Position numbers and translations under genes: made by a program. Positions 40,004 through 43,446 of a stretch of 43,616 bases of DNA are shown here, piece after piece; position 1 is the stretch's first letter; the number at the start of each line of letters is the position of its first letter. The notes under the pieces were generated by a model, which saw only the letters and a list, made by a program, of their open reading frames with translations, had not been told where the DNA came from and did not search any database. The DNA is from Zetaproteobacteria bacterium CG06_land_8_20_14_3_00_59_53 (GTDB taxonomy: Bacteria; Pseudomonadota; Zetaproteobacteria; Mariprofundales; Mariprofundaceae): positions 1 through 43,616 of the forward strand of contig PEWE01000028.1 of the NCBI GenBank assembly GCA_002779605.1, read 5' to 3'.

Positions 40004-40786
40004 TCATTCGAATTTCAGTTTGAGCATCTTCCCGCCGGTCTGTTCGGCCAGGGTCTTATAGGCGAAGATCGTGCCGGAATCGTTCAGGCCCAGAGGCAGG
40101 GTGAACACCGGTGCAGGAATCTCATGGTAGCCCACCTCGTCGGTGGGGGGCTCATCACCGATCAGCATATAGGCGCTGGGGAGCGGTGAGGTCCTGGCTA
40201 TCTCGCGGAAGGCATGTCCGACGGTTTCGTCGGCACCGACAAACGGGGCGTTCTGCATCAGATTATCGAACATCGCACCCATCGAGCCGGTATAGGTTCC
40301 GGTTCTGCGATCAGCATACCAGCTGACCGCCGAAACATGTTTACCGGAACGAATGGCGATCACGCGCAACACGGGAATCAGGAAAGTGGTCACACCGTGC
40401 ATTGAACCCGTGGCATCCACCACCAGATGCAGTTCGTTGCCGGGCAGATTCTTCAGACCCTCGATGAACAGATCGAAATCGCGCTTGCCCTGACCCTTGG
40501 ACAGACCGGCACTGGCCAGCACCTTATCCATCTGCTCCTTCACATCCTTGCCGGCCAGCTCATTCATCTCTTCCTGTAACTGGCGGTTGCGCTGCTCGGT
40601 CTCGGCCAGCTTTTCCTGCAGGCGCTCCACTTCCTGACTATCCAGCTCGGACTTGCCGCCACCCTGCAACTGGGCATTCACCAGAATCAGCGCAAATAGA
40701 AAGATGAACGCCGCCAGCATGAGCAGCGCCATATCCGAAAAGATCTCATAGAAGTTTTCAGATGACGGGGCGTGACGCTTGCGCAT
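40004..40786 (-). CDS. MotB/TolR-like membrane protein with von Willebrand A domain (pair 2)
   Basis: A 260-residue protein. One membrane helix lies at about 17-37 with an acidic Asp18 (FSDMALLMLAAFIF) where MotB-type partners carry the proton-accepting Asp. A coiled coil spans about 48-80. Residues about 115-260 look like a von Willebrand A domain: strand HLVVDATGSMHG with MIDAS-like Asp124, Thr126 and Ser128, HVSAVSWYADRR, and SAYMLIGDEPPTDE. No OmpA domain is present. It starts 12 bases after the MotA-like gene, its likely partner. A MotB-like helix joined to a metal-dependent binding domain is unusual. Its function is unknown. Confidence 0.8.
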   Translation of the reverse strand: MRKRHAPSSENFYEIFSDMALLMLAAFIFLFALILVNAQLQGGGKSELDSQEVERLQEKLAETEQRNRQLQEEMNELAGKDVKEQMDKVLASAGLSKGQGKRDFDLFIEGLKNLPGNELHLVVDATGSMHGVTTFLIPVLRVIAIRSGKHVSAVSWYADRRTGTYTGSMGAMFDNLMQNAPFVGADETVGHAFREIARTSPLPSAYMLIGDEPPTDEVGYHEIPAPVFTLPLGLNDSGTIFAYKTLAEQTGGKMLKLKFE

Positions 40787-40798
40787 GCGAAGTCCCGA

Positions 40799-41791
40799 TC
40801 AGTTCCGGAATCGGGCAAACACGCGATTCAGGAATCCGGGACGGACACTGAAGGCATAGCGGGCATGACTGACGGCCAGCGGACGTAAGGGGTCGTCCTC
40901 GGACAGTCCCTTCAATTCTATATGCATCTGTGCTGCCTCTTCTCTTAAGCCCGCCATCTCCTTGCGGCTGGCCTGAATGGCGAGTGTCAGCATCTGCATG
41001 CGCTGGTTGAGATTGGTCACGCTCACATCGAGAGCACGGACATCACGATCATCACTCGGCTCAAGATCGGCCGAGGCATACACCAGATAGGTGCGCACCA
41101 TCAGGTCCTGCAAGCCGTTGACCGAGGCATCGGTGATCCACGAAAACACGCGCAACAGGATGCCGCCCAGCACCGAGCCCATCAGCGTGGTGTAAAAGGC
41201 CACACCCATGCCGTTCATCGCCGTGCGCAGGCCATCCACCAGCAGATTCTGATTGATACCCAGCGCGCCGAGTGCACCGTGCAGGCCGTTCATGGTGATG
41301 GTCATGCCGAGCACCGTACCGATCAGACCCAGGGTGATCATCAGATTACCCAGCAGGCTGACAAACTGACTGGTGCGATGCTGCGCCGAGAACTCCACAT
41401 CGACCAGCGACTCGACATCCAGCCGGCCGTTTCTTTCTGCAATCAGGCACAGGGCATCGGTGAAGCGATCCACGATATGGCGCCCGCCACGCTGGGTCAC
41501 GCCGGCCATGCCGTTGCGCTTCACCATGCCTTCGATGCGATAGGCACGGAACCATTCGGCAGTCAGGCGCATGGCCTGGATAAAGCTGATCGCCACACCC
41601 AGCACGAACATGCCAAGGATGATCCAGGTGATGCGCGTGGTGTCCTGCGCCACGAACTCCATCACATTGGCCTTGCGGTAAAGCATGGTGAACACGGTCA
41701 ATGAGGAGATGAACCAGCCCATCCATAGAGCGAAGGTTCTCAGTGCACGTTGATCGGCTGCCCGCTGCATCGTGTTTTTGGATGTCATCAT
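40799..41791 (-). CDS. MotA/TolQ/ExbB-like proton channel protein (pair 2)
   Basis: A 330-residue inner-membrane protein with segments at about 22-40, 54-74, 144-168 and 190-215. The conserved block is LLGNLMITLGLIGTVLGMTITM followed by AMNGMGVAFYTTLMGSVLGG, typical of MotA/ExbB channels. A cytoplasmic helical tail follows. The start overlaps the gpmI stop by one base (TAATG), which indicates coupling to a glycolytic gene. It is not close in sequence to the channel at 33653-34588, so the two pairs are not a recent duplication. It probably drives the vWA partner encoded just downstream. Confidence 0.85.
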   Translation of the reverse strand: MMTSKNTMQRAADQRALRTFALWMGWFISSLTVFTMLYRKANVMEFVAQDTTRITWIILGMFVLGVAISFIQAMRLTAEWFRAYRIEGMVKRNGMAGVTQRGGRHIVDRFTDALCLIAERNGRLDVESLVDVEFSAQHRTSQFVSLLGNLMITLGLIGTVLGMTITMNGLHGALGALGINQNLLVDGLRTAMNGMGVAFYTTLMGSVLGGILLRVFSWITDASVNGLQDLMVRTYLVYASADLEPSDDRDVRALDVSVTNLNQRMQMLTLAIQASRKEMAGLREEAAQMHIELKGLSEDDPLRPLAVSHARYAFSVRPGFLNRVFARFRN

Positions 41792-43446
41792 TAAGCTCCC
41801 TTCGGTTCCAGCAGGGATGGTTGTAATTCATCAGGGGCATGCTGCCCGAGCATATTCAGCATGGTCGCGGCGATATGCGACAGGCCCGGGCGGGTATATA
41901 CGTTGTCCCCCTCGACAGGCTGACGCAATGTATAGCTGCCGTCGAATGCGGCATCGAACAGAATACACGGCACCGGATTCAACGAGTGCCGGGTGGAAGG
42001 CTCATCACCATGCTTGTTGGCCACGCGCATCTCCTCGGCATTGCCGTGATCGGCGGTGATCAGGGCCGAGCCGCCCGCGGCCTGCAGGGCATCGACGATC
42101 CTTCCCACCGCGGTATCCACAGCTTCGATGGCTTCGATCACCGGCTTCATATGACCACAGTGCCCCACCATATCGGCATTGGCGAAATTGATCAGTCCGA
42201 AACCGTAGCCGCCAGCGGCGATCAGTTCGATGGCCTTATCGGCGATCTCAGCGGCCTTCATCTGCGGCGCATCGGCAAAGGAAACCCCTTTATCGGACGG
42301 AATGAGGATATAATCCTCCATGCTGCGATCCAGCGGCTCACGATAACCGCCGTTAAAAAAGAAGGTGACATGCGGATACTTCTGGGTCTCCGTCAAACGG
42401 AACTGGCGGATACCCATGGAGAGCAGACGACGACCCAGCGGATTGGCCACCTTGGTCGGCCCCATCAACTGCAGTTCAGGCAGATTGCGATCCTCGTCGT
42501 ACACCATCATGCCGGCATACAACACATCCGGACCCCGGCCATTCACCCCGCCGCGATCGAAACCGCTGAAATCATCAAGCTCGAAGGCCTCGGTCATCTC
42601 GATCGCGCGATCGCCGCGGAAATTCACCATCACGACAGCATCACCATCGTTCACGGTACCGACAGCCCGACCGGACTCATCCACAATCACAAAACCGGGG
42701 ATATCCTGATCGACGATGTCCGGAGTGGTTGCACGGAAGCTATCGATGGCTGCCTGCATCGAGGTGAAGCGATACTCGCCCGCACCTTCGACCATCAGCT
42801 TCCAGCCCGCACCGACCTTCGACCAATCGTTATCGCGATCCATGATGATGCGCTCGCGTCCGCCACCGGAAGCAAAGCTATAGTCATAACCGTCCTTCGC
42901 ATTGATACGCACGAACACCTCTTCCAGCATGGCCACATAGGTCTGGGCGCTCTGGATCCCCACATCACGGCCATCGAGCAGCGCATGCACGCGCAGACGA
43001 CGCACGCCGGATGCAAAGGCATGATCCACCAAGGCGAGGAAATGATCGACATGCGAATGGATATTGCCATCGGAAAGCAGGCCGAGCAGATGAATGCAGC
43101 CGCCTTCGACACCGCGTTGCACAACCTTGCAGAGGGCATCGGATTCATAGAACGAGCCGTCTTCGATGGCCTTGTTGATTCGGGTCGGGCCCTGGTCGAG
43201 GATCATACCGGCCCCCATGGTCAGGTGGCCGACCTCGGAACCGCCGAGATCCTTGCCTGAGGGCAGGCCGACAAACGGCCCGTGCGTCATCAGGCGGGTA
43301 CTCGGATACTCACGCATCAGGCGATCGAATACCGGGGTGCGGGCTTTGGCAATGGCATCTTCGGCACCCCCTGTACCGATACCCCATCCATCCATAATGA
43401 TAAGAAGTGCCGGGGAACGTCCGGCAAAATGTTGTTCTACTGACAT
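41791..43446 (-). CDS. gpmI: 2,3-bisphosphoglycerate-independent phosphoglycerate mutase
   Basis: A 551-residue di-manganese enzyme of the alkaline-phosphatase superfamily that interconverts 3- and 2-phosphoglycerate. The metal-binding IIMDGWGIG is at residues 16-24, and nucleophile Ser70 in LGGSEVGHLTMGAG replaces the more common GNSEVGH. TADHGNAEEM near the C-terminus supplies metal ligands. The length is at the long end, similar to plant-type iPGM. In an autotroph it leads carbon from 3-phosphoglycerate, the RuBisCO product, into phosphoenolpyruvate and biosynthesis. It heads an operon with the second channel pair. Confidence 0.95.
   Translation of the reverse strand: MSVEQHFAGRSPALLIIMDGWGIGTGGAEDAIAKARTPVFDRLMREYPSTRLMTHGPFVGLPSGKDLGGSEVGHLTMGAGMILDQGPTRINKAIEDGSFYESDALCKVVQRGVEGGCIHLLGLLSDGNIHSHVDHFLALVDHAFASGVRRLRVHALLDGRDVGIQSAQTYVAMLEEVFVRINAKDGYDYSFASGGGRERIIMDRDNDWSKVGAGWKLMVEGAGEYRFTSMQAAIDSFRATTPDIVDQDIPGFVIVDESGRAVGTVNDGDAVVMVNFRGDRAIEMTEAFELDDFSGFDRGGVNGRGPDVLYAGMMVYDEDRNLPELQLMGPTKVANPLGRRLLSMGIRQFRLTETQKYPHVTFFFNGGYREPLDRSMEDYILIPSDKGVSFADAPQMKAAEIADKAIELIAAGGYGFGLINFANADMVGHCGHMKPVIEAIEAVDTAVGRIVDALQAAGGSALITADHGNAEEMRVANKHGDEPSTRHSLNPVPCILFDAAFDGSYTLRQPVEGDNVYTRPGLSHIAATMLNMLGQHAPDELQPSLLEPKGA

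Follow-up and report, generated by a model that had tools for sequence, protein, structure and literature searches.

The window, which is the entire stretch of 43,616 nucleotides analyzed, carries a conserved pair of genes, A and B, encoding a MotA/TolQ/ExbB-like channel subunit and a membrane protein that ends in a von Willebrand A (vWA) domain. The window forms one contig (C32) of the genome of a marine bacterium whose closest relatives are Zetaproteobacteria, a group of iron oxidisers. Among relatives, the pair co-occurs almost perfectly with a divergent cbb3-like haem-copper oxidase system. Our preferred reading, which we hold at a little short of even confidence, is that A and B form a proton-driven motor whose vWA domain works on this oxidase, in its assembly, cofactor insertion or remodelling. 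A functional link between A-B and the oxidase is new, as far as the literature searched shows. Stators tipped with vWA domains were proposed in 2025 with no reported function, and the co-occurrence with the oxidase gives a first concrete, testable idea of one. If this is true, 5:2 proton motors power enzyme assembly, beyond motility, transport, defence and envelope work.

Locus organization

A and B follow one another on the minus strand (40004-41791), with 12 bases between the two open reading frames. The gene order on that strand is gpmI, A, B.

40799..41791, minus strand: A, MotA/TolQ/ExbB-like channel subunit, 330 aa (PF01618, Foldseek)
40004..40786, minus strand: B, protein with trans-pore helix, coiled coil and vWA domain, 260 aa (ORF, AlphaFold2, Foldseek)
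41791..43446, minus strand: gpmI, phosphoglycerate mutase, upstream neighbour outside the conserved unit (TIGR01307, 417.7 bits)
41789..41793, minus strand: TAATG, in which the gpmI stop shares one base with the ATG of A (sequence)

The original prediction drew attention to the odd TAATG coupling. The overlap is real but incidental: of 55 loci, 7 have gpmI close to A-B, and because only this minority shows it, the coupling provides no functional clue. On the same count gpmI was ruled out as a functional partner of A-B.

The channel subunit

A scores 33.4 bits against PF01618 (MotA_ExbB; Pfam cut-off 22.9), in agreement with its initial assignment as a MotA/ExbB-like channel. The AlphaFold2 single-chain model has a mean pLDDT of 77.6, and the best structural matches identified by Foldseek are ExbB, TolQ and ZorA, with modest E-values (from 1.9e-3) at a probability of 1.00. 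PDB sequence searches with A (phmmer and profile) return coiled-coil matches only. Two threonines align with those of TolQ/ExbB and are invariant over the 74 homologues counted.

41315..41317, minus strand: Thr159 of A, at the position of the conserved TM3 Thr (GT of TolQ/ExbB); 74/74 identical; alignment with TolQ/ExbB of the same genome
41186..41188, minus strand: Thr202 of A, at the position of the TolQ/ExbB Thr in TM4; 74/74 identical; alignment
40901..41053, minus strand: helical, coiled-coil-like C-terminal tail of A (residues 247-297); AlphaFold2 helix, weak PDB coiled-coil match

The source genome contains five MotA_ExbB matches, of which the window's A scores lowest (34 bits vs 87-139). 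The others are a TolQ beside a TolA-like gene, a MotA with two MotB, and two ExbB units, one accompanied by ExbD and TonB. With these four assigned to TolQ, MotA and ExbB, A-B is therefore an extra unit.

The vWA-bearing subunit

Hydropathy analysis of B reveals one strong hydrophobic segment (residues 18-36), with basic residues on its N-terminal side. Residue conservation was counted over 78 distinct homologues.

40667..40738, minus strand: predicted trans-pore helix of B (residues 17-40), Asp18 at 40733-40735; hydropathy, D18 in 78/78, MotB_plug in 30/31 homologues
40511..40636, minus strand: linker of B forming a coiled coil (residues 51-92), modelled at low confidence; AlphaFold2 helices, pLDDT 46-82
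40007..40495, minus strand: vWA domain of B (residues 98-260); AlphaFold2 block with pLDDT 79-96, Foldseek match to VWF A2 (3zqk, E 7e-5)
40403..40417, minus strand: MIDAS-like D-x-T/S-x-S motif of B, DATGS (residues 124-128); D124 and S128 in 78/78, T/S126 in 78/78
40154-40156, minus strand: Asp211 of B, candidate metal-site residue; 78/78 identical

The MotB_plug match is weak, yet it recurs in all but one of the 31 homologues. Together with the single transmembrane segment and the invariant Asp18 it supports the MotB-like helix that had been read from the sequence, and the coiled coil noted alongside is modeled as helices. The vWA domain with DATGS, likewise part of that reading, is evident at the level of structure. 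Neither Pfam nor NCBIfam matches a vWA domain in the window's B, and VWA_CoxE is found in only 1 of 31 homologues (Pfam, E 8e-4), but residues 98-260 of the AlphaFold2 single-chain model, mostly of high confidence, adopt a vWA fold (Foldseek probability 1.00; TM-score to VWF A2 0.60 by target). This fold takes the place of an OmpA-like or TolR/ExbD periplasmic domain, for which B has no Pfam match; PDB sequence searches with B (phmmer and profile) give no useful match. The MIDAS pattern DxSxS...T...D is present as a putative metal site, and Thr188 is a further candidate residue (T in 69 of 78, S in 4 and N in 5).

The vWA domain is predicted to be periplasmic, on a protein held by an inner-membrane anchor. 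This placement argues against an adhesion motor built on the vWA domain and used for gliding or for attachment to surfaces, which the original prediction had suggested and which the fold and MIDAS-like motif would suit. The loci examined contain no adhesin or motility genes among the neighbours of A-B, and the pair co-occurs instead with a respiratory oxidase system. We consider an adhesive role very unlikely.

Conservation and distribution of the pair

A lies directly upstream of B, on the same strand, for 77 of the 80 distinct B proteins; the remaining three are at contig ends. The pairing is far above chance. The two features on which the original prediction hung, a vWA fold and a conserved pair, were thus both tested and found. 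Searches found B in 23 of the 61 relatives, in 43 of the 398 phylum-sample genomes (all 43 in the window's own order) and in 8 of 8 genomes of one gammaproteobacterial order, and its A partner in 34 of 369 sampled Gammaproteobacteria (~9%, counting matches above 350 bits). The plasmid and phage collections searched yield no B homologues, and the corresponding search with A recovers distant channels only. The A-B unit is chromosomal and present in Zetaproteobacteria and some Gammaproteobacteria. In M. ferrooxydans PV-1 the pair is duplicated, and the near-identical copies lie ~92 kb apart (L008 and L009), one behind a CcoG-like gene and the other behind globins and a reductase.

This distribution bears on whether A-B is a defence stator like ZorAB of Zorya. 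PADLOC and NCBIfam models of ZorA (8e-6 and 7e-4) and ZorB match weakly, and Foldseek also gives a match to ZorAB. However, none of these matches reaches beyond the channel, the membrane helix and the beginning of the coiled coil, and no ZorC/D/E-like partner is seen among the conserved neighbours. A chromosomal pair that is present in 8 of 8 genomes of one order, and that the plasmid and phage collections searched lack, also fits poorly with such a system, and a defence function is hardly credible.

Genomic neighbourhood

Across 55 loci, the only constant element is A-B itself. In about 25 of them the pair is surrounded by genes of O2/NO respiration, encoding an NsrR-like regulator, globins, a ferredoxin-type reductase, CcoG-like proteins, cytochromes c and CcoN-like proteins. 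Other loci adjoin gltBD-hemE, mpl, gpmI and further unrelated genes. A family of ~145-aa lipoproteins is encoded directly beside B in 7 loci and within the oxidase cluster in other genomes.

L015 8869-9306; L253 10400-10975; L251 1597-2001: members of the ~145-aa lipoprotein family

In Zetaproteobacteria, the NsrR-like, globin and reductase genes nearby might instead point to a sensor or gate for proton motive force. Its task would be to regulate the oxidase, or the response to NO/O2, and not to assemble the enzyme. Such a role is improbable, given that no cytoplasmic signalling domain is seen and that the neighbours vary.

The lipoprotein gene beside B would also suit a general envelope force transducer, in which a rotating vWA domain pulls or tethers a peptidoglycan or outer-membrane partner in a Tol-Pal- or Ton-like manner, and the link to the oxidase reflects lifestyle or ancestry. 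A is homologous to TolQ/ExbB, and this function was proposed for the architecture in 2025 (PMC12204202). Against it, TolQ-TolA, flagellar MotAB and a pair of ExbB units are already encoded in the source genome, the loci examined reveal neither a conserved outer-membrane receptor nor a peptidoglycan-binding neighbour, and A-B co-occurs with the oxidase system. We regard an envelope transducer as rather unlikely, though likelier than the other rivals.

Co-occurrence with a divergent cbb3-like oxidase

Co-occurrence was evaluated within the order, over 41 relatives, 23 with B and 18 lacking it. Among the matches listed, a divergent long CcoN-like subunit of full length occurs in 23 of 41 genomes, the same 23 that have B. 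It scores about 63-79 bits, measures 468-490 aa and aligns from position 38 of the profile; for relatives lacking B, the list shows only a 112-aa fragment, in G028. The list stops at weak scores, and a very weak match in a genome lacking B could lie below that limit. For the short CcoN-like protein, matches of >200 bits occur in 23/23 relatives with B vs 3/18 without. These three (G022, G028 and G035) are 57-86% complete and belong to genera that have B; among genomes at least 90% complete the figures are 15/15 vs 0/11.

The same trend is observed for c2, a ~490-aa polytopic membrane protein whose gene adjoins A-B in 11 loci from both classes. In genome-wide searches c2 is detected in 21/23 relatives with B vs 2/18 without (leaving out one weak match with two stops, in G005), in 31/33 vs 0/29 Gammaproteobacteria, and in 11/14 vs 2/4 genomes from one genus of the window's family. 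The pooled counts are 63/70 vs 4/51 (Fisher p 3e-21, uncorrected for phylogeny). The 7 of 70 genomes that have B and no c2 include M. ferrooxydans PV-1 (G130), and c2 is present in two genomes of the PV-1 genus that lack B. Because c2 is mostly not adjacent to A-B, the association extends beyond simple linkage. Co-occurrence of this kind can nonetheless reflect shared ancestry, as the absences of B fall in few genera.

Most of the 20 c2 loci place c2 beside the oxidase cluster or beside NsrR/globin/reductase genes. Alongside c2, the oxidase cluster encodes the short CcoN-like protein, cytochromes c and a thioredoxin-like protein; some of the clusters also have the long CcoN-like subunit. In the source genome, the oxidase cluster (contig C28, about 22-41 kb) encodes CcoN-like, CcoO-like and FGE-sulfatase-like proteins, the CcoN-like protein scoring 243 bits where the ccoN cut-off is 583. 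This divergent cluster, with its FGE-sulfatase-like gene, is seen in L252 (7647-15564) and L232. Further CcoN-like proteins of this genome, ~170-220 aa long, align with no more than the C-terminal third of CcoN. Searches of Pfam, NCBIfam and the PDB with c2 yield no match worth naming. A GT-C glycosyltransferase was considered and rejected, the likeness being by eye only and a Glyco_transf_22 match appearing in 1 of 11 members (1.4e-4).

Proposed mechanism

A and B would constitute a proton-driven rotary motor of the MotAB/TolQR superfamily, with the output domain carried by B. Judging from homologous stators, five A chains would form a pore lined by Thr159 and Thr202 and enclose two B helices, with Asp18 as the proton carrier. 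Proton flow would then turn B relative to A, again by homology, and the coiled coil would pass this motion to two periplasmic vWA domains, whose putative metal site may grip a partner. That partner would most likely come from the divergent oxidase system that accompanies A-B genome-wide; the candidates are the long and short CcoN-like subunits, the CcoO-like protein, the cytochromes c and c2. The likely job would be assembly, cofactor insertion or remodelling of the oxidase, making A-B a proton-driven counterpart of NorQ-NorD.

We favour a machine acting on the oxidase because A-B co-occurs with both CcoN-like proteins and c2, because about 25 of 55 loci adjoin oxidase, CcoG-like or globin-reductase genes, and because the lipoprotein family either adjoins B or lies in the oxidase cluster; NorQD serves as a precedent. 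Counting against it are the many A-B loci beside unrelated genes, the 7 of 70 genomes with B and no c2, shared ancestry and the cytoplasmic location of NorD. A more specific version, in which a 5:2 stator acts as a proton-driven chaperone and the periplasmic vWA domains work mechanically on the divergent cbb3-like oxidase during its assembly or metallation, is speculative and rather doubtful.

Comparison with known systems

The original prediction regarded A-B as a new kind of unit. The architecture of a vWA-tipped stator is not new, since TolQ homologues paired with vWA proteins bearing an Asp-containing trans-pore helix (TPH) have already been described (PMC12204202; Mol Biol Evol 2025, section 8, Fig. 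4c-d). Those pairs occur in Proteobacteria without TolR/ExbD, predominantly comprise two unlike vWA genes, as a tendency and not an absolute rule, and are of unknown function. Compared by description, A-B shares the adjacent TolQ-like gene, the vWA domain on an Asp-bearing helix and the lack of TolR/ExbD, whereas the A-B loci examined have a single vWA gene. A-B is a single-vWA variant of the TPH-vWA/TolQ architecture.

The only two-vWA operon among the loci examined is L191 (4114-6973), where a channel gene is followed by two different TM-vWA genes, resembling the unlike pairs of PMC12204202. One of its vWA proteins aligns with B over 206 columns in a profile comparison, and its A is sister to the window's A in the channel tree (94/69), on a long branch; L191 served as a look-alike for the published Idiomarina set. 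A search for more operons of this two-vWA type returned G725 only.

A-B resembles the TolQR, ExbBD and MotAB stators in channel fold, pore threonines and helix aspartate; B, however, ends in a vWA domain instead of a TolR/ExbD or OmpA-like domain. The channel and helical tail also resemble ZorAB, but B has no peptidoglycan-binding domain and no ZorC/D/E-like partner is seen. Weak A homologues in other Pseudomonadota have OmpA-type, YfaP-like or plain coiled-coil partners and no vWA domain, and the tree groups channels largely by partner type. PV-1 additionally encodes a divergent channel of 308 aa with a 303-aa TM/coiled-coil partner lacking a vWA domain (L142, 3652-5495), and this type of pair is found in several Gammaproteobacteria (L173, L175-L178). 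Loci L134, L135 and L180-L188 combine a MotA-like gene with a small TM protein containing a region that is YfaP/DUF2135-like by eye; the L180 protein has no Pfam match.

In NorQ-NorD, an AAA+ motor and its vWA partner load metal into NO reductase by twisting (PMC13036017). NorQ is a cytoplasmic AAA+ ATPase, whereas the motor here would be a proton-driven membrane complex; in place of a MoxR-type AAA+ ATPase, B has a PF01618 channel as its conserved partner. NorD works in the cytoplasm, whereas the vWA domain of B is predicted to be periplasmic, and the homology proposed here stops at the vWA fold. What the two systems would share is a motor-driven vWA protein tied to a respiratory enzyme of the haem-copper superfamily.
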